Assembly (NCBI GenBank): GCA_029246385.1
Contig: JAQWNG010000034.1
Coordinates: 124,001 to 188,000 of the forward strand
DNA length: 64,000 bases
Source of the DNA: Halioglobus sp.
GTDB taxonomy: Bacteria > Pseudomonadota > Gammaproteobacteria > Pseudomonadales > Halieaceae
Direction: 5' to 3'
Made by a program: the position numbers and the translations under genes. Of the stretch, positions 39,043-54,100 are shown one piece after another. Each line of letters begins with the position of its first letter. Within the stretch, counting starts at the first letter, position 1. The notes beneath the pieces were generated by a model, which was not told where the DNA came from, searched no databases, and saw only the letters and a program-made list of their open reading frames with translations.

Positions 39043-40959
39043 TCAGGCCAGCTTACGTTGGCTGTCAGAGCCTGCCGGACTATCCCTGACCAAGGCGCCC
39101 CCTTTTTTGAGGTATATCAGCAACAATGCAATGGCGGCTGCCGTGACCCCAGGTATTCGTCCAGCACGTGCCAATGAGTCTGGTCGAGCAGCACTTAACC
39201 TCTGTTTTACTTCATGAGACAGGCCGTCAACTGCGTTATAATCTAAGTCAGCCGGCAACGGTGTGTGCTCATTACGACGAAGGCGCGCAATATCTTCTTT
39301 TTGTCTTTCAATATAGCCTGCATACTTGGCTTGTATTTCAACTTGTTCTACTGCTTGGGGGTCTCCACTGGGCGCTCCCACCAACGCGGCGATGTCTGCA
39401 TATGTCAGCTCTGGACGTTTCAGCAGTTCAGCCAGAGAATATTCACGGGCGAGTGGATTTTTTATTTTTCCTGCAAGCGCTTCAGCCTGCGGGGTGTCAG
39501 GTTGAACCCAGCTGGTCGCTAATCGGTCTGTTTCTTTCGCTATCGCATCGCATTTTCTTTCAAAGCGCTCCCAACGAGCATCACCCACCAACCCCAATGC
39601 CCTGCCGTGCTCGGTGAGACGCAAGTCTGCGTTGTCTTCACGCAGCAGCAGCCGGTACTCCGCACGCGACGTAAACATACGATAGGGCTCTAAAGTGCCC
39701 ATCGTGATCAGGTCGTCTACCAACACACCAACATAGGCCTCGTCCCGCCGCGGGGCCCAGGCTTCCTTTTCACGCACCGCGAGAGCAGCATTGAGTCCGG
39801 CCAGTAAACCCTGAGCAGCAGCCTCTTCATACCCCGTAGTGCCGTTGATCTGCCCAGCAAAATATAATCCGGGAAGGGCCTTTGTCTCGAGGGTTGCATT
39901 GAGATCCCGCGGATCGAAAAAATCATATTCGATCGCGTACCCTGGCCTAGTGATGTGTGCATCCTGAAATCCTTCGATGGAACGAACGAGCTCAGTCTGA
40001 ACATCAAATGGCAAACTAGTCGATATACCGTTGGGATAGAGCTCCTGCGTATTTAACCCCTCCGGCTCTATAAAAATCTGGTGCGAACTTTTATCCGCAA
40101 AGCGGTGAATTTTATCCTCAATACTGGGGCAGTAGCGCGGCCCGACTCCTTCGATAACGCCTGAATATAACGGTGACCGGTCTAGGCCGCCTCGAATAAT
40201 GTCGTGGGTTTGCTCATTGGTGTGAGTGATCCAGCAGCAGCGCTGCTCGGGATGTTCGGCGGTGTTTCCTAGGTAAGACATTACCGGTTCAGGTTGATCG
40301 CCCCACTGCTCCTTCAGGCCGGAGAAGTCTACGCTGCGCGCATCGATGCGCGGTGGCGTCCCCGTTTTTAGGCGCGCCACACGGAATGGTAGCTCGCGTA
40401 AGCGCTCTGCAAGCGCAATAGACGGCGGGTCACCGGCGCGACCGCCAGAGTGGCTCTCTAACCCAATATGCATTTTACCACCGAGGAATGTGCCGCTAGT
40501 AAGAACCACTCGTGGCGCCCGAAAAACAAGCCCCATTTGCGTAACCGCACCGGCTATTTTGCCATTCTCAACGAGCAGGTCGTCAACTGGCTGCTGAAAT
40601 ATGGATAAATTGGGTTGTGATTCGAGTATTTGGCGGATGGCATTCCTGTACAACACTCTGTCTGCTTGTGCCCGCGTAGCCCTGACGGCCGGTCCTTTGC
40701 GTCGGTTCAATACACGAAATTGTATTCCAGCCTGGTCGGTGGCGCGAGCCATAGCTCCGCCTAAAGCATCAATCTCCTTAACGAGGTGGCTCTTCCCAAT
40801 ACCACCGATCGCAGGGTTACAGGACATTTGTCCCAGCGTATCGACACTGTGGGTAAGTAGAAGGGTACGACACCCCATGCGTGCCGCCGCCAGGCAGGCT
40901 TCCGTTCCCGCATGCCCCCCGCCAATAATAATCACTTCAAACCGTTGTTGGTATTCCAC
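39043..40959 (-). CDS. mnmG: tRNA uridine-5-carboxymethylaminomethyl modification enzyme MnmG
   Basis: Protein of about 638 residues from a GTG at 40959. The FAD-binding [17 protein letters not shown] motif is at about residue 11-27, followed by [15 protein letters not shown] and the second motif [15 protein letters not shown]. It works with MnmE to place cmnm5 at U34 of tRNAs. The open frame continues 72 bases further up to 41031, but the sequence GCGAGG lies seven bases before GTG 40959 and the family begins with [13 protein letters not shown]. It stands in an operon with rsmG, parA and parB. Its partner MnmE is interrupted by an in-frame stop in this window. Confidence 0.96.
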
Positions 40960-41061
40960 TGCTGGCCTCGCATACCAAGTGCATTCCCGTTTAAGATCAC
41001 AGATTATACGAGGGCCATGCCTGTTGTTCAAAAGTTGCCCGGTGTCGCCGCGACTGGTGTA

Positions 41062-41904
41062 TCAACTAACCGGCAGCCTGTCCTCACACCACGCGAGGAT
41101 TTGATCAAGAACGTCTTGGCGCTCAGGTTCATTCAGGATTTCATGGTACAGACCGGAATAAACCGTCAAGGTTTTATCCGCAGAAGCAATGTGTTCATGC
41201 AAATAACGCGACCCATCAGGCGAGGTCATTACATCTGCACCACCATGGAGTATTAACATCGGCAGAGTGATGCCTACGGCACTCGCTTGCAAGCTCGCCA
41301 TGCCTGCAAATAACTCTCGCACCATCCGCGCCGAAGCCTTACCGTGAAATACCAGTGGATCTTCAAGATATTTTCTCACCTGCTCAGGGTCACGACTGAC
41401 GCCGCTGGCATCTAACTGCATTACCCCCAGTCGTGGCGTTAACACTGCCAGCAGCCGAATAGCGTACATTTGTAGCCATCCCGGCTGTAGATCGGAGGTA
41501 ATAAGTGCACCCGATAGAATACAACCAACAAACCGATGCTGTTGCTCTAAAAGATAGTTGCACGCAATCAAACCGCCGAGGCTGTGCCCTAAAAGGAATA
41601 TCGGTACAGCAGGGAAACGGCGCTCTATCTCATTATTAAACGCTCTTAAATCAGCGAGGAAGTCAGCAAACATGTCTATATGACCTACTCTGCCATCAGA
41701 ATAACCGTGGCCACGATGATCCAGTGCAACAACTGCCAGCCCTTTTGCCGCAAAGAACTCTCCTACATGCCGATAACGGCCACTATGCTCGCCGGCGCCA
41801 TGGACTACTAATACGATGGCTTTAGGGCCAGCCTCTGGCAACCAATATTGGAAGTAAATCGTTTGTTGACCAACGCTCTGTAAGCTGTCCTCTATGTGTT
41901 TCAT
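41062..41904 (-). CDS. Alpha/beta hydrolase, monoacylglycerol-lipase-like
   Basis: Protein of 280 residues. The oxyanion and HG motif VVHGAGEHSGRYRHVGEFFA, VALDHRGHGYSDG and the nucleophile elbow LLGHSLGG match the Hydrolase_4/monoglyceride-lipase family. LHGGADVMTSPDGSRYL provides the acid residue and LYHEILNEPER the catalytic His. Substrate probably short- or long-chain monoacylglycerol or lysophospholipid; that is inference. It is the leftward gene just upstream of mnmG (102 bases) and divergent from the pyrophosphatase gene. Confidence 0.85.
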   Translation of the reverse strand: MKHIEDSLQSVGQQTIYFQYWLPEAGPKAIVLVVHGAGEHSGRYRHVGEFFAAKGLAVVALDHRGHGYSDGRVGHIDMFADFLADLRAFNNEIERRFPAVPIFLLGHSLGGLIACNYLLEQQHRFVGCILSGALITSDLQPGWLQMYAIRLLAVLTPRLGVMQLDASGVSRDPEQVRKYLEDPLVFHGKASARMVRELFAGMASLQASAVGITLPMLILHGGADVMTSPDGSRYLHEHIASADKTLTVYSGLYHEILNEPERQDVLDQILAWCEDRLPVS

Positions 41905-41999
41905 GTGTTCTCCGAGTCAGATCGCCTGTTACAGGCAATTTCACCCACGACGCGTTAATATCCTGTTACATTTCAAAAGTAGACTTTTGTTTGTTTCGC

Positions 42000-42029
42000 T
42001 TGTCACTGCTGCCACAATTTAGGTAGCAT
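42000..42029 (+). promoter_or_regulatory. Possible promoter of hppA
   Basis: TTGTCA (42000-42005) and TAGCAT (42024-42029) are 18 bases apart, with the hppA start 40 bases downstream. The -35 is one base from consensus and the -10 two bases, so this is only a fair candidate. Confidence 0.35.
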
Positions 42030-42069
42030 GCAGAGCATATTATATATAATAAAACACTGGAGTTGTTCT

Positions 42070-44061
42070 ATGACTGAATACCTTATCATTCCACCAATCG
42101 TTGGTCTTGCAGGTCTTGCCGTCGCATTTATTATTTATCACATCATGCTGCGACATGATGCCGGTGACGGGGTGGTCAAAAAAATCGGGGATCAAATACA
42201 TCTTGGTGCTATGGTCTTTATGCACCGCGAATATAAAATGTTAGCCCTGTTCTCGCTATGCTTGTTAGTGGCTATTTTTGTTTCGCCGCTAGGTCTCAAC
42301 ACCGCTATCGCATTTGTAGCTGGCGCAGCATCATCTGCGACTGCGGGCTATCTGGGCATGTTCGCTGCTACGAAAGCTAACGTGCGTACCACGGTGGCCG
42401 CCCACAATCACGGTCAAAAAACGGCGTTGTCTGTTGCTTTTTATGGCGGCTCCGTAATGGGATTATGCGTTGCATCGCTAGGCCTCGTCGGTCTAGGGGG
42501 TGTCTATTGGTATTTCGGTGGAGACGTTGGCACAGCACACGCTATCCACGGATTTGGCATGGGCGCATCTGTAGTTGCTTTGTTTTCACGCGTAGGCGGG
42601 GGCATATTTACCAAGAGCGCTGATGTTGGCGCCGATTTGGTGGGTAAGATCGAAGCAGGCATTCCAGAGGATGATCCTCGCAATCCAGGCGTTATCGCAG
42701 ACAATGTAGGCGACAATGTCGGTGACATCGCAGGCATGGGTTCAGATATTTTCGAATCATACTGTGGCTCAATGATTGCTTGTGTTGCAATCGCATCAAC
42801 AATAACTGTGGCAGCAACGCGAGATGCCATGATGCTCCTGCCTCTCGCTTTAGCCACGATTGGCCTTTTAGCTTCTGTTTGTGGCATTGTAATTGTTCGT
42901 ATTCGATCTAATGCGCCACCAGAAGCGGCGCTGCGGTCTGGTACGTTATTAGCACCGGTTATTTTTGCGATAATGGCATGGTTCATGATGGATACTATGG
43001 GGCTGGAAGCCAACATATGGTGGTCTGTTATTTGTGGTGCGGTAGGCGGCGTCTTTATTGGTTTAATCACCGAATACTACACCGGTGGAGGACCTGTTAA
43101 GAAAATTGCTAAGTCGGGAGAAACGGGGGCGGCCACGGTTATGATTACTGGTTTGGCCGTCGGTATGCAATCTGTCGTTCTGCCTGTTCTGTTCCTGGCT
43201 GCGATTATTTACATTTCTACATTACTTTCGGGTCTTTATGGCGTCGGAATCGCCGCCGTGGGTATGCTTGCCACGGTAGGAATTACAATGGCGATTGACG
43301 CCTACGGCCCTGTTGCCGATAACGCTGGAGGAATCGCTGAAATGGCCGGTATGGGTGAAGAGACCCGCCAGATAACTGACGGCCTCGATGAAGTAGGTAA
43401 CACGACAGCTGCCATTGGAAAAGGGTTCGCCATTGGTGCCGCGGCACTCGCTGCTTTAGCAATTATCGCTGCCTTCGTGGAGACCGTGCAGGTTCATACT
43501 GTTGATTTTGCCTTGGCCGTTACAGATCCCGTCGTATTGGTAGGAATGTTCATTGGTGGAACGATTCCATTTTTAATTGCAGCGATCACCATGACCGCAG
43601 TAGGCGAAGCAGCTTTCGACATGATTAATGAAATTCGCCGTCAGTTTCGCGAAATCCCAGGTTTATTGGAGGGGTCCGCTGAGCCTGATACAGAGAAATG
43701 TGTTGATATTGCGACCACTGCTGCGCTGCGTCGTATGATTTTGCCTGGTGTTATTGCCGTGTCAGCGCCTGTGCTGGTTGGCTTTGGTCTCGGTGCTGCG
43801 TCTCTGGGCGGCATGTTAGCAGGTGCATTACTGGCATGTGTTTTGATGGCATTAATGATGGCGAATGCCGGGGGAGCATGGGATAACGCCAAGAAATATG
43901 TAGAAAAAGGCAACCTCGGTGGAAAAGGGTCGGATACTCATTCGGCTGTGGTCGTTGGTGACACCGTAGGCGATCCCTTCAAGGATACTTCAGGTCCCGC
44001 AATGAATATTCTGATTAACGTAATGGCCATCGTGAGCCTAGTCATCGCGCCTTTACTGTAA
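42070..44061 (+). CDS. hppA: Membrane-bound ion-pumping pyrophosphatase
   Basis: Protein of 663 residues with about sixteen helices. The catalytic loop contains [31 protein letters not shown] and MGSDIFESY; a later loop has [18 protein letters not shown] and [17 protein letters not shown]. The enzyme hydrolyses PPi and pumps H+ or Na+ across the cytoplasmic membrane. The residue after GNTT is Ala447, as in the K+-dependent class (Lys in K+-independent ones). Glu229 in DIFESY sits where Na+-pumping members and some H+-pumping members keep it, so the pumped ion cannot be settled. The ATG at 42070 has GGAG close upstream; the frame from 42028 is rejected. It stands divergent from the hydrolase and ahead of the hotdog operon. 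Confidence 0.95.
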
Positions 44062-44071
44062 GGTTCCATGT

Positions 44072-44101
44072 TGCGCCTCGATGGCTCATCGTCGAGGCGC
44101 A
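44072..44101 (+). terminator. Stem-loop after hppA
   Basis: TGCGCCTCGA (44072-44081) and TCGAGGCGCA (44092-44101) form a perfect ten-base-pair GC-rich stem with a ten-base loop, eleven bases after the hppA stop. No T run follows, so it is a likely but not classic terminator or a transcript-protecting stem. Confidence 0.6.
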
Positions 44102-44191
44102 TATAAACCATACAAGTACTAGCGCGTTCGGCAATGGCACTGTCATTATTGTTCGTCCATATGGTTCTCTTATCGGCTCAATGAGTGTGGT

Positions 44192-44677
44192 ATGCCTGTC
44201 CTGAGCAACAGCCAAAAATTTGATCTCGTTACAATAATGAACGCCCATATTCCTCATGCGGCTTTACTCGGGATTCAAGTCGAGAGCATCGAAAGAGAAG
44301 AACTGACACTAAGACTGCCCTATCAAACACACCTCATTGGTAACCACGAAACCGGTACATTACATGGTGGCGTATTAACGGTGCTACTGGATCAGACCTT
44401 GGGGATGGCAACCGTCTGCAGTGATGCCTCTGAACCGTCTGTAACGCCAACGCTAGACTTGCGGATTGATCACTTAGGCATAGCGCCGGCAGGAATGTCT
44501 ATATTTGCCTCAGCACGCGTTTACAAAGCAACTCGAAAAATACTTTTCGTCGAAGGCATCGCCTATTGTGAATCAAAAGAAAAACCTATTGCGCGGGCTA
44601 CAGGTAGCTGGGTCCGAGTTGCAGAAGTCGATTTGTCTTGGATTGTTTCATCCGACAAGGACGCTGCCTCACCATGA
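44192..44677 (+). CDS. Hotdog-fold PaaI-type thioesterase
   Basis: Protein of 161 residues, PaaI-like. The motif GTLHGGVLTVLLDQTLGMA has the family's HGG loop and catalytic acid, and SVTPTLDLRIDHLGIAPAG follows as the second strand. It is likely an acyl-CoA thioesterase, but the substrate is unknown. First gene of a four-gene rightward operon: its stop overlaps the ATG of the next hotdog gene. It lies 90 bases after the hppA stem-loop. Confidence 0.8.
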   Translation: MPVLSNSQKFDLVTIMNAHIPHAALLGIQVESIEREELTLRLPYQTHLIGNHETGTLHGGVLTVLLDQTLGMATVCSDASEPSVTPTLDLRIDHLGIAPAGMSIFASARVYKATRKILFVEGIAYCESKEKPIARATGSWVRVAEVDLSWIVSSDKDAASP

Positions 44678-45114
44678 CATCACGAAGCAATGCGCGCGAC
44701 AAGCCCTGCCTAGAAACATTACACCATTGGCTAGAAAAGATTCCCTATGCGATGTTTCTCGGCATTAAAGCCGAGCCATCCAAGAAAGATATTATTTTTA
44801 TACTACCAAAGAATAAAAAGTTTATTGGCAACCCATCTCTGCCGGCGCTACACGGTGGTGTTATAGGCGCTTTCATGGAGCAAGCCGCGGCGCTTCACCT
44901 GGTTGGCAGTATGGATGCCGCTGCTCTGCCTAAGATAATTAATTTCTCTTTGGATTATTTACGACCTGCGCAATTGCGTGATACCTATGCGAGTTGCATT
45001 CTGAGCAGGAAAGGTCGATTTATTAGCAACCTCACTATTACGGCTTGGCAAGAACACATTAATCAGCCTAATGCGATTGCTAGAGCGCACTTTTTAACCC
45101 CTGAAACTAACTGA
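44674..45114 (+). CDS. Hotdog-fold thioesterase-like protein
   Basis: Protein of 146 residues from ATG 44674, which overlaps the preceding stop as ATGA. It carries PALHGGVIGAFMEQAAALHLV, again with HGG, and INFSLDYLRPAQLRD. It is related to but clearly different from the first hotdog protein, so the two may form a heteromer or a two-step pair. The catalytic acid position is Glu (FMEQA) rather than Asp. A longer frame begins at 44638 but that start lies inside the previous gene. Confidence 0.77.
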   Translation: MTSRSNARDKPCLETLHHWLEKIPYAMFLGIKAEPSKKDIIFILPKNKKFIGNPSLPALHGGVIGAFMEQAAALHLVGSMDAAALPKIINFSLDYLRPAQLRDTYASCILSRKGRFISNLTITAWQEHINQPNAIARAHFLTPETN

Positions 45115-45127
45115 GAGGATAGCCACT

Positions 45128-45583
45128 ATGTCACGCTGGGAACGCATAGAAATTGAACATGCTTTTGAAAAGTATCAGGCTGCGGCGTTAAAGGGTGCGC
45201 AGACTAAAGACTGGACTGATTGGTCGGCTTGCTTTACCCAAGACGCCACTTATTTTGAACATCACTATGGACGTTTTTGGGGCCGTGACAATATTCATAC
45301 TTGGATTACAGAGACAATGAATAAATGGCCTGCCAGTGAAATGACTGCATTTCCAGTAACTTGGTATACGATTGACGAAGACAAAGGCTGGGTCATTGCA
45401 GAAGTTATGAATCGAATGAGCGATTTAGGCGACGGCAATATTTACCAAGAACCTAACATTACTATTTTGCATTATGCCGGGAATGATGTTTTTAAGTATG
45501 AGGAGGATGCTTATAACCCACACAATATGGGTGTCACTATAGGCGCTTGGATTAAAGCGAAAAAACTCATTGAAACAGCATAA
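45128..45583 (+). CDS. NTF2/SnoaL-like domain protein
   Basis: Protein of 151 residues with the alpha+beta cone fold of the SnoaL/NTF2-like family: an N-terminal helix (WERIEIEHAFEKYQAAALKG), then DWTDWSACFTQDATYFEHHYGRFWGRDNIHTWI, then strands such as WYTIDEDKGWVIAEVMNRM. Members are small-molecule isomerases, cyclases, hydratases or ligand carriers. GAGAGGATAGCC gives a good ribosome-binding site. It is 13 bases after the second hotdog gene and 21 before the flavin oxidoreductase, so it belongs to the same operon. The reaction is unknown. Confidence 0.78.
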   Translation: MSRWERIEIEHAFEKYQAAALKGAQTKDWTDWSACFTQDATYFEHHYGRFWGRDNIHTWITETMNKWPASEMTAFPVTWYTIDEDKGWVIAEVMNRMSDLGDGNIYQEPNITILHYAGNDVFKYEEDAYNPHNMGVTIGAWIKAKKLIETA

Positions 45584-45604
45584 TCGCTTATTAGCACATA
45601 TGCT

Positions 45605-46582
45605 GTGAACCAATCGTCGACCAACAGCAATACTGTTCTCCGCTTCGACATGCGGACATCACCAATGTGCAAAGATGCGCCAACCGATCGATATCACGCA
45701 GCGATAGACATGGCCACCTGGGCTGACACTCGAATGATTAATGTCGTGGGTTTATCTGAGCATCATGGTACTCCTGATGGCTTCTTAGCTGCGCCATTAC
45801 AATTGGCCGGCATGATGGTCGCACGTACGAAAAGAGTGCGCATCAGCGTCAGCGCTCTATTGGTGCCCTTGCATGACCCTTTGCGGCTGGCAGAAGATAT
45901 TTGTTTAATAGATCAAATCGCAAGAGGCCGCTTTTCGGTGACATGCGGCCTAGGTTACCGAGAACTGGAGTATCAATTATTTAACATTGATTGGTCAGAG
46001 CGTGGACAACTATTTGATGCCAAGCTTGATGTTTTAATCCGGGCACTCAAAGGCGAGTCTGAGAGTACTAATGGACATTCTCTGCATTTAAACCCACTTC
46101 CTGTTTCTAACATTAATGAGCTACTAATGATTGGTGGAAATAGTAAAGCCGCTGCACTGCGAGCTGCGCGATTAGGTTTGTTCTTCTGTCCAGCGATTGA
46201 TGATGATACTTTAGTCAAGGTGTACAAAGAGGCGTGTAATGAACGTGGATTTGTTATCTCACCAGGAGAGCCGTCTACGACATTTATTAGTCAAGATCCT
46301 TCTGCCGCATGGAAAGCGATTGGCGAGCATTTAATGTACGATGCACGCGCTTATGCCGAGTGGCAGCATCCCAACCGAAGAGCATACGCAGAGTCTTTTG
46401 CCTCAAATATCGAGGAATTAAAGCAGGAAGGGAAGTACCGTATTTTGTCACCTGAGGAGGCATTGAGGTCGATAGAAAACACGGGGTCATTGCATCTTGC
46501 TCCACTCACTGGAGGAGTTCCTATTGATATCGGATGGGAAAGCTTGCGCTTATTTGAAGACCACGTCCAACCTTATTTATAG
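45605..46582 (+). CDS. Luciferase-like (LLM class) flavin-dependent oxidoreductase
   Basis: Protein of 325 residues with the bacterial-luciferase TIM-barrel fold. Visible blocks are VVGLSEHHGTPDGFLAAPLQLAG (broken up: GLSEHHG, then AAPLQLAG), then RVRISVSALLVPLHDPLRLAEDICLIDQI followed by GRFSVTCGLGYRELEY. The GRF and GxGY phrases are the flavin-binding core of LLM enzymes. It uses reduced FMN (or F420) to oxidise a small organic substrate. The start is GTG at 45605, with an ATG at residue 16 as alternative. Last gene of the operon, convergent on mnmE across an AT-rich gap. Confidence 0.85.
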   Translation: MNQSSTNSNTVLRFDMRTSPMCKDAPTDRYHAAIDMATWADTRMINVVGLSEHHGTPDGFLAAPLQLAGMMVARTKRVRISVSALLVPLHDPLRLAEDICLIDQIARGRFSVTCGLGYRELEYQLFNIDWSERGQLFDAKLDVLIRALKGESESTNGHSLHLNPLPVSNINELLMIGGNSKAAALRAARLGLFFCPAIDDDTLVKVYKEACNERGFVISPGEPSTTFISQDPSAAWKAIGEHLMYDARAYAEWQHPNRRAYAESFASNIEELKQEGKYRILSPEEALRSIENTGSLHLAPLTGGVPIDIGWESLRLFEDHVQPYL

Positions 46583-47036
46583 TTATTTCTACGTTTTAAA
46601 AAAACATCTAAAAGTTTTCAGCGTTGTCGTCACTATATAGATATATATACTTAGATATATGTATAAGGATTATTGTTATTACTACTATTAGGGCTGTCTA
46701 CGACAGTGGAAAACTGCTTTTTTAATATATAAATCATATCGTTAAAGCGATCAAAATCCGTAGGAAAACGACGGTATTGCCTGGTCAAAACCAGTGGTTA
46801 AACGGTGGGAAACCTCGGTCTTTTTGTGGATATTTTTCGGGGGTGACATCGAGCTGTGTATAACCGCCTATTTTGTGCAGCGTTTATTAAAATAATATTA
46901 AGATGTTTTTAACAAAAACAGCTGCCCACAATTAATGACTAAAAAACTACCGCATAAAAACTAAATAGATTAAATTAAGTAAAGAAACCACGGATCAGAT
47001 TTGAACGATTTGTGCGTATTACTTTGCAATTTAATG
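46583..47036. other. AT-rich gene-free region with DnaA-box-like sites (candidate oriC)
   Basis: This 454-base stretch separates convergent genes and contains no convincing frame. It begins with an AT-rich block (about 46583-46745) rich in ATATAT runs. At 46825-46833 TGTGGATAT and at 46855-46863 TGTGTATAA lie in the same orientation 30 bases apart; the second fits TGTGNATAA exactly and the first differs at one position. It lies between mnmG and mnmE, the same neighbourhood as the E. coli origin beside mnmG. A rough hand count of plus-strand bases in the following mnmE gene gives about 255 G to 203 C, although the gene is on the minus strand; this would fit an origin to its left. Confidence 0.45.
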
Positions 47037-47252
47037 TTATTTTCCAATGCAAAAACTAGAAAATATAACGCCTAATAATTCATCACTAGTAACAGCGCCA
47101 GTAATTGTTCCTAGGCTGTTCTGACACAGACGCAAATCTTCGGCGAGTAACTCACCAGCACCTGATTCTTGTAGTTGTCTTTTCCCATGTAAAAAAAAAT
47201 GTCTCGCTTGTTCGAGAGCAGTTATATGACGACGACGCGCGCTAAACCCTCA
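47037..47252 (-). pseudogene. mnmE: Severed 3' part of mnmE after in-frame TGA
   Basis: Reading through the TGA at 47252-47250 in the same frame gives 70 further sense codons and then TAA at 47039-47037. These encode the conserved MnmE C-terminus, beginning GFSARRRH and ending [15 protein letters not shown]. Counting the stop as codon 384, the full length would be 454 codons, identical to E. coli MnmE, and the FCIGK Cys would be residue 451, the E. coli catalytic Cys. No other stop or frameshift is present. GGA to TGA is a single-base change at a position that is Gly in E. coli. Confidence 0.9.
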
Positions 47253-48401
47253 CTGACCTCCGTCAGTAAACTCCATACAGCCTTTTAAATGCGTCCGCAG
47301 TAAGTGCATGCCTGCGCCGGATTTGACCGATAGATTGATAAGTGTATGTCCTAGTAGCGGATGTATTATTGGGTGGCTATCAGTTAAATCGCATTTGTTT
47401 TTTATAATGGTAATAGGAATGTCGCGTCGCGAGGGTGTTAGCGAATTTTGCCAAAGTGCGTTGATCTCAGCGTCGAGGTTTGATGTTGTGGTGCCATCAA
47501 CAATTAGTAGGATGCGGTCTGCGGAGTTAATCTCAGCATGAGCGCGACGGACGCCCTCTTGTTCTATTATATCGTCGCTATGGCGCAGACCTGCAGTATC
47601 AGCGATATGTATAGGCAAGCCATCGATTTGAATATGCTGCCGTAAGACATCGCGTGTGGTCCCTGCTAGCTCGGTAACGATTGCGGTATCTTGCCCCGAT
47701 AGAGCGTTGAGTAAGCTAGATTTTCCCGCGTTAGGTTTGCCGGCAATTACCAGTTTCATCCCCTCTTGGATGAGAGCGCCCTGTGCGGCTTCACTCATTA
47801 CAGTATTGAACTGGTCAGTGATGGCGAGCAGTTTGGCTGAGATCTGGCTATTTTCAAGGAAATTGATTTCCTCTTCTGGAAAGTCGATAGCGGCTTCAAC
47901 ATACACCCTCAGCTCAGTGATTAAGGTTATTAAATGTTCAATTCTTTTCGAAAATTCACCCTGTAGTGTGCGGCTAGCATTAAGGGCTGCTTGCTCGGTT
48001 GTACTGTTTATAAGATCGGCAATGGCCTCTGCCTGAGTTAAATCTATTTTGTCATGAAGATACGCTCGCTGCGAAAATTCGCCAGGTAAGGCTTGGCGGG
48101 CGCCAAGCTTGCAGACTTCTCGCAAAATAAGATCCAATATTATTGAGCCACCGTGCGCCTGCAGTTCTACGACATCTTCCCCAGTAAACGAATTTGGTGC
48201 AGGGAAAAACAAGCTTATACCAGAATCTAGAATCGTCCCTTCAGGGTTGCGATAGTGGCAGAAGTGGGCGTATCTGGGCTTGAGCGCGGTTGCGGTGATC
48301 GCGTTTCCGATAGAGAAAGCGCGAGGACCCGACAGCCGGACAATGCCGATACCTCCAGGACCGGAAGCTGTTGCAATGGCAGCAATAGTTTCTTCTTGCA
48401 T
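47250..48401 (-). CDS. mnmE: MnmE tRNA-modification GTPase, interrupted by an in-frame TGA
   Basis: Open frame of 383 residues covering the tetrahydrofolate-binding N-terminal domain (about 1-118), the first part of the helical domain and the whole G domain: GKPNAGKSS at 221-229 (G1), the TT of LAGTTRD (G2), DTAG at 268-271 (G3) and IKNKCDLT (G4). MnmE works with MnmG on wobble U34 of tRNAs. Family length is about 454; the missing 70 residues, encoded downstream in frame (47037-47249), hold the last helices and the catalytic FCIGK. If the TGA is real and not read through, the protein cannot do its chemistry. The gene is last in the rpmH-rnpA-yidD-yidC-mnmE operon, 37 bases after yidC. Confidence 0.9.
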   Translation of the reverse strand: MQEETIAAIATASGPGGIGIVRLSGPRAFSIGNAITATALKPRYAHFCHYRNPEGTILDSGISLFFPAPNSFTGEDVVELQAHGGSIILDLILREVCKLGARQALPGEFSQRAYLHDKIDLTQAEAIADLINSTTEQAALNASRTLQGEFSKRIEHLITLITELRVYVEAAIDFPEEEINFLENSQISAKLLAITDQFNTVMSEAAQGALIQEGMKLVIAGKPNAGKSSLLNALSGQDTAIVTELAGTTRDVLRQHIQIDGLPIHIADTAGLRHSDDIIEQEGVRRAHAEINSADRILLIVDGTTTSNLDAEINALWQNSLTPSRRDIPITIIKNKCDLTDSHPIIHPLLGHTLINLSVKSGAGMHLLRTHLKGCMEFTDGGQ

Positions 48402-48438
48402 GGCACAAAACCTAGCGCGTTAAACGTAGCCAATGATG

Positions 48439-50142
48439 CTAAGTTTTAGCGGCGGCATTTTCTATTCGTCGTGTGATTACGTATTGTTGTGCCATAGAGA
48501 GCAGGTTGTTGACGACCCAGTATAGAACGAGCCCCGCCGGAAACCAGAGGAAAAAGAAGGTAAACATAACGGGCATCCATTGCATAATTTTAGCTTGCAT
48601 TGGATCGGGTGGCGGCGGATTGAGTTTTTGCATGTAGAACATGCTAGCGCCCATCATTAGTGGAAGAACAAAGTAGGGGTCCATCACCGCTAGATCCTTA
48701 ATCCAGAGCACGAAGGGTGCTTGTCTAAGCTCCACGCTTTCCATTAACATCCAGTACAAGCCGATAAAAACAGGCATTTGAACCAAAATAGGCAGGCAGC
48801 CGCCCAATGGGTTAATTTTCTCTTTTTTATACAGTTCCATCATGGCCTGAGATTGTTTCTGTTTGTCGTCGGCAAACTGCTCTCTGATATCGACCATTTT
48901 GGGTTGGACGCGGCGCATGTTCGCCATTGACCTGTAAGAAGCCGCTGATAATTTGAAAAACACCGCCTTGATCAAAACGGTTAGTAATATAATCGCTACG
49001 CCCCAGTTACCTACTAACGCATGAATATTTGTTAGCAACCAAAATAGTGGTTGCGCGATCCACCAGAGAAATCCGTAATCGATTGTGAGGTCTAGGTAAG
49101 GTGAGATCTCTTTCAGTCGATATTGATCCTTCGGTCCAGCATAAAATTTTGCGCCCATAACGCCAGAGCTTCCTGAGTCGAGGGTCAGCGCAGGGCTGGT
49201 GAACCCCGCGATATTAAACCCTGCGGAAGTTACGCGTGCGCTATATGTTTGTATCTGGTCTGGGTTTGGAATCCAGGCGCTAAGGAAGTAGTGTTGCACC
49301 ATCGCAATCCAGCCGCCGGGCAGTTGGGCTTTGAATGGCTCTTCTTTAAGGTCGTCAAAGGTGAACTTAGTGTAACGCTCGTCGGGCTGTGTAAGTGCGA
49401 CGCCTAAGAAGGGCTTCATACCCATTGCGTTAGTGTTATCGGATGGCGGCGGCGCACTCCCGCGCTTCACTTGTCCAAATAAATTGGCTTGCCAGCGTTC
49501 AACGCTGTTATTGTCGATTAAATAGTCTATGTCAATCAGGTATGAGCCGCGGTATAAAGTAAGTCGTTTAGTGACGCGTACGTCCGCATTGCCTTGCCAC
49601 TGCAAGTCTACGACGAGTGAATCGTCTCCAGGGTTAAGGGTGTAGATAGTAGATGCTGCGTTAAAAAGCGCCCTGCCGTCATTATCGATTCCGTTTGGGC
49701 CAATGAGTCCGCTCTGAGCGATATAGGTGAGGGTTTCATTATCTTCTAGTAAGACAAACGGGTCATTAGGGTTGTCCAGTTCTGCCAAAAACTTTGGCAG
49801 CGAAATCTCCATAATGTCGCCACCTTGCAGGTCCACCGCGAGCTGTAAGACATCAGTTTTTATTTGGATAATACGCCCGCTATCAACAGCAGAGGCTGTT
49901 GATGGGTTGATTTCCAAGGTACTGTATTCTGGGGTTGTTGGGAGGTCTTCGTCAGTGCTGGTTGCAGGTGCGGCAGGCTTTGCAGGCATTATGGTGGGCG
50001 CTTCCCCCGTGGCGGATATTAGACGCGATGTGTCTTGTATTGCCGATGCGCTTTTTTCGTCGGTAAAGCTCACCCACTCCGTAAGTAACATAAATGATAG
50101 TGCAGCAATGGCGCCAATGAGTAATGTGCGTTGCAAATCCAT
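48439..50142 (-). CDS. yidC: Membrane protein insertase YidC
   Basis: Protein of 567 residues with an N-terminal helix, a large periplasmic beta-sandwich (about 60-340) and a conserved C-terminal core of five helices. Core phrases are NWGVAIILLTVLIKAVFFKLSAASYRSMANMRRVQPKM (quoted in outline), INPLGGCLPILVQMPVFIGLYWML, and FFLWFPAGLVLYWVVNNLLS. YidC inserts membrane proteins, including ATP synthase Fo subunits encoded in this same region. It follows yidD by 17 bases. Confidence 0.97.
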   Translation of the reverse strand: MDLQRTLLIGAIAALSFMLLTEWVSFTDEKSASAIQDTSRLISATGEAPTIMPAKPAAPATSTDEDLPTTPEYSTLEINPSTASAVDSGRIIQIKTDVLQLAVDLQGGDIMEISLPKFLAELDNPNDPFVLLEDNETLTYIAQSGLIGPNGIDNDGRALFNAASTIYTLNPGDDSLVVDLQWQGNADVRVTKRLTLYRGSYLIDIDYLIDNNSVERWQANLFGQVKRGSAPPPSDNTNAMGMKPFLGVALTQPDERYTKFTFDDLKEEPFKAQLPGGWIAMVQHYFLSAWIPNPDQIQTYSARVTSAGFNIAGFTSPALTLDSGSSGVMGAKFYAGPKDQYRLKEISPYLDLTIDYGFLWWIAQPLFWLLTNIHALVGNWGVAIILLTVLIKAVFFKLSAASYRSMANMRRVQPKMVDIREQFADDKQKQSQAMMELYKKEKINPLGGCLPILVQMPVFIGLYWMLMESVELRQAPFVLWIKDLAVMDPYFVLPLMMGASMFYMQKLNPPPPDPMQAKIMQWMPVMFTFFFLWFPAGLVLYWVVNNLLSMAQQYVITRRIENAAAKT

Positions 50143-50159
50143 AATAGAGTATCTTTCGC

Positions 50160-50387
50160 CTAGTGTTGGTGTGTGCTGGGCGGAACGGGGTCTTCTCCCC
50201 CTTCATGCCAGGGGTGGCATCGCGCTAACCGCAGTACAGCCAGATAGCTACCTTTAAAAACGCCATGTCGATTGATAGCTTCTTGGGCATAGGAAGAGCA
50301 GGTAGGATGAAAGCGACAATGATTACCTATGAAGGGGCTGAGGCAAGCCTGATAACAGGAGATAAGAAAAATCAACAGGCGGCGCAT
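50160..50387 (-). CDS. yidD: Membrane protein insertion efficiency factor YidD
   Basis: Protein of 75 residues with the family's Cys-rich core [20 protein letters not shown], then [37 protein letters not shown] (outlined). It is a small amphipathic protein assisting membrane insertion. Start ATG overlaps the rnpA stop (TAATG), so translation is coupled. Confidence 0.95.
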
Positions 50388-50785
50388 TAGAAATCCTGGC
50401 TATTGTTCGATATCGTTTTAGTGGTTTGGCTCATCAGCTTTTGCCACTGCTGCAGCAATATAGAGGATAGTTCATTATTATCCAAATTACCCATGCCGCG
50501 TCTCGCGAGGAGCACAACGTCGATGCTGGTTTCATCGCCTGAGCGCGTGCGCAAAAACTCTCTAGCTACTCGTTTTATTCGATTTCGATGCACGGCTAGA
50601 CGAACGTTCTTCTTGGCGATAACCAACCCTAAGCGATGACTGGCCCTGTCATTAGTTTTTGCCAATAACAACAATGACGGGTGCGAGGCTCGGACATCAG
50701 GGCTATCAAATACTCGAGTGTAATCATTAGCGTTGAGTAACCGTTTGTCCTTGCCGAATCTAGAGCTCGTCAGTTGTCCAACCAA
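50387..50785 (-). CDS. rnpA: Ribonuclease P protein component
   Basis: Protein of 132 residues, basic. [19 protein letters not shown] is the family N-terminus and [26 protein letters not shown] the RNA-binding RNR motif block (two parts: [10 protein letters not shown] and HRNRIKR). It assists RNase P RNA in tRNA 5' processing. The start seems to be TTG at 50785, nine bases after the rpmH stop; no ATG fits. Confidence 0.94.
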
Positions 50786-50794
50786 GCTGTAGTT

Positions 50795-50929
50795 CTAGGC
50801 CGTCAGGCGCTTGCGGCCTTTAGCTCGGCGACGCCCGACCACGTTGCGGCCGCCTTTTGTGGCCATGCGAGCGCGGAATCCGTGCGTACGAGCGCGCTTT
50901 AAAACGCTGGGTTGGAATGTTCTTTTCAT
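50795..50929 (-). CDS. rpmH: 50S ribosomal protein L34
   Basis: A 44-residue protein starting [19 protein letters not shown] and ending [13 protein letters not shown], the canonical L34. It is a very basic protein of the large subunit and starts the rpmH-rnpA-yidD-yidC-mnmE operon. A sigma-70 promoter lies about 90 bases upstream. It is too short for most automatic gene lists. Confidence 0.98.
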
Positions 50930-51019
50930 CGTATATCTTCCAAATTGATAAAGTGAGCGATACCTTGTCAGTCTTACACGACAGCTGAGCTGGCTATTCG
51001 CCCGGAAAAACGGTGGGCT

Positions 51020-51048
51020 ATTTTATGTAAATGTAGGGGCTATTTCAA
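51020..51048 (-). promoter_or_regulatory. Sigma-70 promoter of rpmH
   Basis: On the minus strand, TTGAAA (51048-51043) and TAAAAT (51025-51020) are 17 bases apart. Each is one base from consensus. The rpmH start is about 90 bases downstream. Confidence 0.7.
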
Positions 51049-51208
51049 TGAAAAGTGCAACTATTTTAGGGCTGTAGACGCTGCGATTTCGGTTTAAAAA
51101 CTGATCGCAGAAAGTGCTGCCGTGCCCGGTTCGACATGGCTTAACTCAGGCCCGTAACCATCTAGTTTAGAGCATTAATGCACACCTTGTCAAAAAGATA
51201 CACACAGG

Positions 51209-51217
51209 TTATACACA
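51209..51217 (+). promoter_or_regulatory. DnaA box TTATACACA
   Basis: The nonamer TTATACACA fits the TTATNCACA consensus and lies 251 bases before the dnaA start. Confidence 0.65.
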
Positions 51218-51327
51218 AAAAAGGCTCGCTCTGCCGCATGTTCGCTGATGCGGTTATAATATCGCCATATCTATGGCAACACTTTGAATAACATAGAAAA
51301 ATTATTTTCAGCGTTTTGGTATTTATT

Positions 51328-51336
51328 TGTGGATAA
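51328..51336 (-). promoter_or_regulatory. DnaA box TTATCCACA (minus strand)
   Basis: The plus-strand sequence TGTGGATAA is an exact complement of the strong consensus DnaA box, 124 bases before the dnaA start. Confidence 0.75.
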
Positions 51337-51459
51337 CTCGGGTGTTCGGGCGTATTATGCGTTGTGTTTCCGGGTAGAATTACTGCGCAAACGCGAATTG
51401 TGAACATTTGTTTTTTTTTCAGAAGCCCGGGACGCTTGCCTGGCTTTAAGGGGTTTTCT

Positions 51460-52899
51460 TTGCTTGATGCCGTGTGGCAAAAATGTGTCAGTCGCTTGCG
51501 CGACGAGCTGCCATCGCAACAGTTTAATACCTGGATTCGACCGTTGAAAGCCAGAGCAGACAGTCGTTCGCTGACGCTTTTTGCGCCAAACAGGTTCATT
51601 AAAGATTTTGTGGTGGAAAAGTACTCGGAGCGGATATGCGCCCTCGTAAGTGAGTTGCAGCCGGATGACACACTTAAAGTGGCTTTGGAAATTGGCCCGG
51701 TAGCGACGTCGGCGGTGTCGCTGCCGATAGTGGCTGAGCCTGAGCCCTTGGCGTTAGCGGAGAGTAAACAAGGGGCGTTCGACCTTGGTAGTATTGAGCC
51801 CGAAATCGCGAATGCTGCGTTCCCACTGGGTCAGCGGAGTCGACCCCGCGTAGATGACGTCCGGTCTCCAGTGGATCACCAGCATCATTTGTTCGAGAAT
51901 TACACCTTTGATAGCTTTGTAGAAGGTAAATCTAATCAGTTAGCGCTGGCTGCCGCGCGCCAGGTTGCCGAAAACCCGGGCACCTCTTATAACCCATTAT
52001 TTTTATACGGCGGTGTTGGTCTTGGTAAAACGCACCTAATGCACGCTGTCGGTAACGCTTTAAAAGTGCAGAACCCAGAGGCAAAGGTTGTATATCTGCA
52101 CTCAGAACGGTTTGTTGCCGATATGGTTAAGGCGCTGCAGTTAAACGCCATTACGGACTTTAAGCGCTACTACCGTTCGGTTAATGCATTACTGATAGAT
52201 GACATACAGTTTTTTGCAAAAAAAGACCGTTCACAGGAAGAGTTCTTTCACACCTTTAATGCCTTGCTAGAAGGCGGCCAACAAATGATTCTGACATGTG
52301 ATCGTTACCCCAAGGAAATTGTTGGTTTGGAGGAGAGGCTAAAGTCACGCTTTGGATGGGGGCTTACAGTTGCCGTGGAGCCTCCAGAACTCGAGACCCG
52401 AGTCGCAATATTAATGAAAAAAGCGAGCGAGGCCCGCATTGATCTGCCGCCAGATTCGGCGTTTTTTATTGCACAACGAATACGGTCTAATGTCAGAGAG
52501 CTAGAGGGTGCGCTTAAGAGAGTGATAGCGAGTGCTCGCTTCTTAGCAAGGCCCATCGATATGGAGTTGATCAAGGAGAGCCTGAAGGATTTGCTGGCGC
52601 TGCAGGACAGGCAGGTTAGTATGGACAACATCCAGCGCACCGCAGCGGAGTATTATAAAATCAAAATAGCGGACATGATGTCTCGCCGACGCAGTCGCTC
52701 GGTTGCTAGGCCCCGGCAGATGGCAATGGCCTTATCTAAGGAGTTGACCAATCATAGCCTGCCAGAGATTGGGGACAGCTTTGGTGGCAGAGATCAAACG
52801 ACAGTTCTCCACGCGTGCCGTAAAATTAAGGAGCTTCGTGAGACAAACTCGGATATTCGCGAGGATTACAAAAACTTGTTAAGGACGTTGACAACGTGA
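51460..52899 (+). CDS. dnaA: Chromosomal replication initiator DnaA
   Basis: Protein of 479 residues from a TTG at 51460 with AAGGGG six bases upstream. Domain I (about 1-85) begins [20 protein letters not shown]; a linker follows to about 145; the AAA+ domain has [15 protein letters not shown] (Walker A, about 184-198), [15 protein letters not shown] (Walker B) and [11 protein letters not shown]. Domain IV (about 385-479) binds DNA. Its signature reads [15 protein letters not shown]: Gln446 replaces the His that in E. coli (His434) contacts the DnaA box. The longer frame from 51364 lacks a good start. The gene begins the dnaA-dnaN-recF-gyrB series. Confidence 0.97.
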
Positions 52900-52933
52900 G
52901 CATATAAACGAAGCTTAGGTTCGTTTATATGCT
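52899..52933. repeat. Perfect inverted repeat between dnaA and dnaN
   Basis: AGCATATAAACGAA (52899-52912) and TTCGTTTATATGCT (52920-52933) pair over 14 bases with a seven-base loop. The first base is the last base of the dnaA stop. It is AT-rich and has no T run, so it is not a standard terminator. Confidence 0.7.
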
Positions 52934-52987
52934 GTCGCCTGTTTACGACACCAAATTGCATTAGTGTAAGAGAGGAAAAGTATCACT

Positions 52988-54100
52988 ATGAAGTTCAGTA
53001 TTTCACGGGATAGCTTAGTTCGATCGTTAAACTTGGTGGCGGGCGTTGTTGAGCGCAGGCAGACGTTACCTATTTTGGCGAATGTATTGCTAGTGCTGAA
53101 GGAAGATTGGTTGTCGTTGACGGGGACAGACTTAGAGGTTGAGCTGGTGGGCCGGATACAGCTTGCTGTTGCGGGCGAGGAGTCTGGCGAAGTAACGGTG
53201 CCCGCTAGAAAGTTGTTAGATATCTGTAAATCGCTGCCTGAAGGTAGTGAGGTCAAGTTTAGCGTCAAAGAAAGCAAGGTGGCGGTGAGGTCCGGCAGTA
53301 GTCGTTTTACGCTGTCTACGCTTCCTGCTAGAGAGTTTCCGAACGTTGAAAACAGCATCGGAACACACCAGCTTACGATCAAGCAGGGTCAGCTGAAGCG
53401 GTTGATCGATCGTACTGGCTTTGCGATGGCTCAACAGGACGTGCGTTACTACTTGAACGGGATGCTGTGGGAGCTGGATAGTAAGCAGCTGCGGGTAGTG
53501 GCAACGGACGGACACCGTCTGGCCATGTGTACGCTGAAAGAGAAGATAAACGTCACTGGTGAAGGGGGTGTCCAGGTGATTCTACCCCGCAAGGGTGTTT
53601 TAGAGCTCGTCCGTCTATTAACGGACGATGAGGCAGACATCCAGATTAACATAGGCAGCAATCATATTAGGGCGGCGACCGGGGAATACACGTTCACTTC
53701 AAAGCTTGTCGACGGTAAATTCCCCGATTATGGGAAAGTGGTGCCGCGGTCGCCGAATAATATTCTGAAGGGCTCTCGTCAGTCGTTGCGTCAGGCGTTT
53801 ACGAGAACGGCGATTTTGTCTAATGAAAAGTTTAGGGGGGTTCGTCTAAAGCTTACGGAAAATACTTTGGATATCGTTGCCAATAACCCTGAGCAGGAAG
53901 AAGCAGAGGAAACGGTGTCCATTGATTATTCTGGCGAGGCGCTAGAGATTGGTTTCAACGTGAGCTATTTGTTGGATGTCCTTGGGGTGCTTAGTGGGGA
54001 CCAGATTAAGCTGTCGCTGGCGGACCCCAATAGCAGTGCCTTGCTGGAGGAGTCTGAAGAGGACGACTCGCTCTATGTTGTCATGCCGATGCGGCTTTAA
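52988..54100 (+). CDS. dnaN: DNA polymerase III beta clamp
   Basis: Protein of 370 residues, three repeated clamp domains. MKFSISRDSLVRSLNLVAGVV begins the protein, RQTLPILANVLL marks domain I, and FAMAQQDVRYYLNGMLWEL and VATDGHRLAMC mark domain II. The C-terminus ends in VVMPMRL, the usual clamp terminus. It rings DNA and holds the polymerase and many repair proteins. It lies 88 bases after dnaA, across the inverted repeat. Confidence 0.97.
   Translation: MKFSISRDSLVRSLNLVAGVVERRQTLPILANVLLVLKEDWLSLTGTDLEVELVGRIQLAVAGEESGEVTVPARKLLDICKSLPEGSEVKFSVKESKVAVRSGSSRFTLSTLPAREFPNVENSIGTHQLTIKQGQLKRLIDRTGFAMAQQDVRYYLNGMLWELDSKQLRVVATDGHRLAMCTLKEKINVTGEGGVQVILPRKGVLELVRLLTDDEADIQINIGSNHIRAATGEYTFTSKLVDGKFPDYGKVVPRSPNNILKGSRQSLRQAFTRTAILSNEKFRGVRLKLTENTLDIVANNPEQEEAEETVSIDYSGEALEIGFNVSYLLDVLGVLSGDQIKLSLADPNSSALLEESEEDDSLYVVMPMRL

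Follow-up and report, generated by a model that had tools for sequence, protein, structure and literature searches.

The gene for MnmE, the tRNA U34 modification GTPase, is split by a single in-frame TGA in a 64,000-nucleotide stretch of assembled Halioglobus DNA (the window). This locus raises the question of whether the bacterium has lost MnmE, whether the living organism carries a sense codon where the assembly carries a stop, or whether the stop is in some way decoded.

An mnmE frame interrupted at one codon

The frame opens with an ATG at 48401 and runs through 383 sense codons to the TGA at 47252-47250, after which 70 sense codons follow in the same frame to a TAA ending at 47037 (Table 1). 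Besides the TGA, a reading of the whole gene found neither a further stop nor a frame change. The gene has 455 codons including the final stop, or 454 with the TGA taken as a residue, and the cysteine of FCIGK, the end of the tail, is residue 451 when the TGA is counted. The earlier note had described this same frame, with these counts and with no other stop, insertion or deletion, and the re-reading upholds it on each point: the PDB MnmE chain 9hip_A also has 454 residues, and its residues 385-454 align end to end with the tail without a gap.

Table 1. Positions of the mnmE pieces and of the intact partner and neighbour genes in the window.
Feature	Position	Strand	Description
mnmE, whole frame	47037-48401	minus	split by one in-frame TGA
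mnmE, first piece (383 codons)	47253..48401	minus	TrmE_N domain, first part of helical domain, G domain
in-frame TGA (codon 384)	47250..47252	minus	loop linking G domain to second part of helical domain
mnmE, tail (70 codons, same frame, terminal FCIGK, then TAA)	47037..47249	minus	PF12631 and 9hip_A alignment
mnmG, partner of MnmE, intact	39043..41031	minus	TIGR00136, 899.7 bits (cut-off 524.85)
yidC, upstream neighbour of mnmE, intact	48439..50142	minus	NF002352, 711.6 bits

The first piece matched PF10396 (TrmE_N) with 131 bits (cut-off 29.8), PF01926, for the G domain, with 82.6 bits (cut-off 21.9; chains 2gj8_A and 1rfl_A also match) and TIGR00450 with 294.4 bits (cut-off 252.6), while its score to NF003661, 359.1 bits, falls short of the cut-off of 380 for the piece alone. 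It aligns to residues 4-379 of 9hip_A. The helical domain, PF12631 (MnmE_helical), is divided between the two pieces, with model positions 1-136 covered by the first (111.5 bits) and 146-211 by the tail (62.8 bits), each separately exceeding the curated cut-off of 40.1. Over its 70 codons the tail is 77-81% identical to those of the two nearest genus members, a similarity to relatives that, judged from the alignments, is far beyond chance. The domains, their order and the terminal FCIGK are those of MnmE (TrmE/ThdF) as represented by PDB 9hip, 3gee and 1xzp, and the length is that of 9hip_A once the stop is counted. However, the helical domain is not complete in any one open frame: the table 11 product has its first part only and lacks the cysteine motif FCIGK, which is encoded solely past the TGA. 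By alignment to 9hip_A the TGA falls in the loop that leads from the G domain to the second helical part, a loop named the C-hinge in an extract of PMC2749940.

A second mnmE elsewhere in the genome, which the earlier note had raised, was searched for and not found; plasmid records gave three weak matches to mnmE and nothing useful. The impression that MnmG is intact holds, both by its TIGR00136 score (Table 1) and by its identity of 79-89% to the proteins of five genus members. Between mnmE and mnmG, at 41062-46582, lie a hydrolase-like gene, a membrane pyrophosphatase gene, two thioesterase-like genes, one unassigned gene and a luciferase-like monooxygenase gene; the hydrolase-like and pyrophosphatase genes have relatives in five genus members, on stretches that hold mnmE or lie near it.

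Relatives and the age of the change

Relatives were compared at one genome per species. A profile search of 140 family genomes, this one included, matched mnmE in 120, and none of the 119 others had a stop within the gene (117 of them cover the TGA site by profile position). Each of the 21 genomes searched outside the family but within the order also matched, again with no stop within mnmE (0/21). The interruption at codon 384 is where this gene departs from known MnmE, as none of the 140 other matching genomes has an internal stop. The gene is widely kept, being present in 75 of the 78 good-quality family genomes, and 17 of the 20 family genomes without a match are under the quality limits.

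At the TGA site glycine stands in 19 of 27 aligned rows (13/14 from the genus and 6/13 from the further family), and histidine, serine, threonine and aspartate are found in other relatives. This alignment holds 14 of 17 genus genomes and 13 of 18 further family genomes, omitting those that gave no match or only fragments, or whose locus was not taken in. A near relative, G005 (L070), has a glycine codon at the site. Among the genomes compared, the TGA is by these alignments a private change at a tolerant, variable loop position, and the comparison with close relatives that the earlier note suggested gave a sense codon at the site and no stop in any of them.

One interrupted mnmE was seen among 36 named loci. 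It is in Colwellia maritima MSW7 (L033:5001-6400), a public isolate assembly, and consists of a frame change in the tail, shortly after GGFMARRRHLTALNNAHQTF.

The tail beyond the TGA is undecayed. Its sequence is altered at 1 of 36 sites that are invariant in the genus, and the count with each of 14 genus members as the focal species is likewise 0 or 1. Together with a run of nine T inside the tail that stays in frame, this agrees with the view in the earlier note that any loss would be very recent. An undecayed tail is predicted equally by a young mutation and by a base error.

The body of the gene, before the stop, is altered at 7 of 144 genus-invariant sites, compared with 0/137 and 2/139 in the two nearest species, and this count is the highest among 15 species, the next being 6 and 6. 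We take it as a weak hint that constraint may be relaxed before the stop, a hint that fades when ten neighbouring genes are taken as the yardstick. Private changes in this genome versus the two nearest number 14 vs 11 in mnmE and 42 vs 67 in the ten neighbouring genes, and the resulting excess in mnmE is not significant (Fisher p = 0.12, from counts summed by hand). A further p value of 0.009 was computed after the counts had been seen.

We favour, with a probability of roughly 0.52, the reading that the one mnmE copy of this genome acquired a nonsense substitution very recently. The three options of the earlier note are narrowed to this extent: the comparison supports a single private substitution, whether error or nonsense mutation, and speaks against programmed readthrough, since the stop was seen in no matching relative.

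Soundness of the assembled sequence

The strongest alternative is that the TGA is an error in the consensus base, and that a sense codon, and with it a normal MnmE, is present in the living organism. This reading, which we hold to be a serious one at somewhat under even odds, fits all the evidence about as well as a true mutation does: a single substitution with no other damage, in a widely kept gene of which the genome has one copy, with a tail under normal constraint. One isolated error among 3.3 million bases is quite possible, and the Colwellia maritima MSW7 assembly also has an interrupted mnmE. A literature search on in-frame stops and sequencing error gave no match.

Against a base error stands the general state of the assembly. 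A homology scan of 1,018,218 bases (1.02 of 3.32 Mb) against stretches of five genus relatives gave 252 matched gene loci, enlarging earlier versions with 57 and 135 loci. A stop or frame change was flagged in 29 of the 252, and mnmE alone was judged to be interrupted in mid-gene between two well-aligned parts; the 29 were sorted by eye, with no scripted rule. Other flagged loci appeared to have stops within about 25 residues of one end of the match, mostly 5' of where the gene probably starts or among its final residues. The remainder looked like antisense or shadow frames, many of them with more than one stop, or like stops where the end of the match aligned poorly (L260+17630, at 42 residues, and L252+5382, at 34, are examples). 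Matches to two domain families were also free of stops in this genome, namely ABC-ATPase domains (0/36) and short-chain dehydrogenases (0/75), making 0/111 in all. The nine-T run in the mnmE tail, being in frame, likewise speaks against a base error. We see no sign of widespread breakage, and this tips the balance slightly from a poor consensus towards one true mutation, because more cut genes would be expected if the sequence were error-prone in general. A coding-potential scan for cut genes was too weak and was replaced by the homology scans.

Two other genes of this assembly carry stops near the C-terminus. The core gene clpP (L149:17140-17790, contig C34) scores 343.5 bits to TIGR00493 (cut-off 308.6) and ends in KEYGLVD followed by TAA, where the relative G004 has a glutamate codon; its frame past the TAA has 17 more codons, of which five align and three are identical. 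An esterase-like gene (L094:1-918, contig C9) is 94.8% identical to its counterpart in G004, with family matches below their cut-offs, and the match is interrupted by a TAA ten residues short of its end. Lone stops near the C-terminus therefore occur elsewhere in the assembly, for whichever reason.

Contig C1 starts (L086:1-490) with three CRISPR-like repeats, identical over 35 bases and spaced by about 30 bases. Behind them lies a 62-base stretch that exactly matches the 3' part of tRNA-Leu(UAA), as in G004. None of the 38 tRNA matches of the genome is a whole tRNA-Leu(UAA), though TTA is used 300 times in 18,407 codons of the window. A pattern search for this tRNA was uninformative, as it also missed the gene of G004, which departs from the pattern. 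The start of the contig has the look of an integrated element's border together with an assembly gap.

Possible decoding of the stop and the consequences of a putative loss of MnmE

Readthrough of the UGA, leaky or programmed, would yield enough working MnmE, with the stop setting the amount. We consider this unlikely. The frame and tail past the TGA are intact, and since the loop that holds the TGA is variable, the protein would probably accept a near-cognate residue there; an in-frame stop and a conserved tail are also features of programmed stop-codon readthrough. It differs from the present case in that the stop here is not conserved, being met in no relative with a match (0/119 family genomes and 0/21 from other families), and in that no recoding element or tRNA was found. 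The genome encodes RF2 (503.4 bits), and an Rfam scan of window positions 44000-54000 gave nothing over gathering scores. The fold at the stop was no better than those of shuffled sequences (z = -0.07), and an RNA element there was rejected. Among the 38 tRNA matches, whose anticodons were read by ARAGORN, none has the UCA anticodon of a suppressor (0/38). Selenocysteine was likewise rejected, as the best tRNA-Sec score, 46.2 bits, is below the cut-off of 47 and belongs to a gene read by ARAGORN as tRNA-Ser (anticodon tga). The tRNA-Trp has anticodon CCA by ARAGORN and presumably lacks the classical suppressor change, at the position where we take that change to lie. Frameshifting at the stop is not needed, the tail being in the same frame. 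A changed genetic code, already dismissed in the earlier note, is rejected by the 12 of 49 other listed window genes that end in TGA as a normal stop, and by the presence of RF2. Recoding at this TGA is unsupported.

A pair of homologous tRNA-like genes was noted in G004 (L228:10219-10292, minus strand) and in this genome (L096:18348-18439, contig C12), in matching flanks with 81% DNA identity over 537 bases. The G004 gene, of only 77 bases, has the anticodon UCA and would read UGA, and the mnmE of G004 has no stop. The counterpart in this genome keeps the anticodon stem and has a much longer anticodon loop, so that the G004 gene lends no support to suppression here. Adjoining the counterpart is a tRNA-like sequence that, by eye, is degenerate and has a CAT loop.

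In a variant that we regard as more doubtful still, the stop would be a tolerated leaky one, with background readthrough in the hinge loop giving a little working MnmE whose level would feed back on its own synthesis, since MnmE itself tunes decoding. That the tail could be translated separately from an internal start and join the first piece is scarcely credible: a GGAGG lies immediately 5' of the TGA, but the same motif is present in the unbroken mnmE of the relative G007 (L071) and so is inherited sequence, and the tail has no in-frame ATG or GTG, its sole common start being a TTG at codon 423, past its halfway point.

We return to the favoured reading, a very recent nonsense substitution, which would have turned a loop codon, for glycine in most relatives, into TGA. 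If the base is real, as we infer, translation would end after residue 383, between the G domain and the second helical part, and the product would be without its last 70 residues, including the FCIGK cysteine and half of the helical domain. In E. coli, Yim et al. are said to have found in 2003 that the C-terminal cysteine of MnmE is essential for modification. The MnmE-MnmG complex should then fail to make cmnm5/nm5 at U34 of its tRNAs, because MnmG is intact but no second mnmE was found, and its function would probably be lost. Ordinary leakiness of UGA might yield traces of full-length protein, as the loop position tolerates several residues; such leakage would presumably be minor.

Loss of the MnmEG step would be survivable, since mnmE mutants of other bacteria live. 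According to extracts of the respective papers, Salmonella mnmE alleles without the mnm5 side chain are viable (PMC3617221), as is an mnmE deletion in V. cholerae (PMC12588516), and a Shigella deletion is viable with lower output of AGA/GGA-rich messages (PMC12283395). The gene here resembles ordinary nonsense alleles and recent pseudogenes, such as the Salmonella mnmE, mnmG and tus alleles in the extract of PMC3617221, in having a single lesion in an otherwise normal gene; those mutants were laboratory-selected and viable, whereas the lesion here is putative and read from an assembly. No comparable natural case of an mnmE nonsense mutation or pseudogene was evident by title among the literature matches listed, though these may include accounts of mnmE loss in reduced genomes. 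A null allele probably costs fitness in nature, given the presence of mnmE in nearly all good family genomes.

On either reading the matter concerns one gene only and has an ordinary explanation, most likely with no new genetic mechanism. If the stop is an error, a truncated MnmE has wrongly entered the gene catalogue of this species. If it is real, this bacterium would be without a wobble-uridine modification that seems to be kept by nearly all of its relatives with good genomes (75/78 have mnmE), and would show in a natural setting how a cell manages when that modification is missing.
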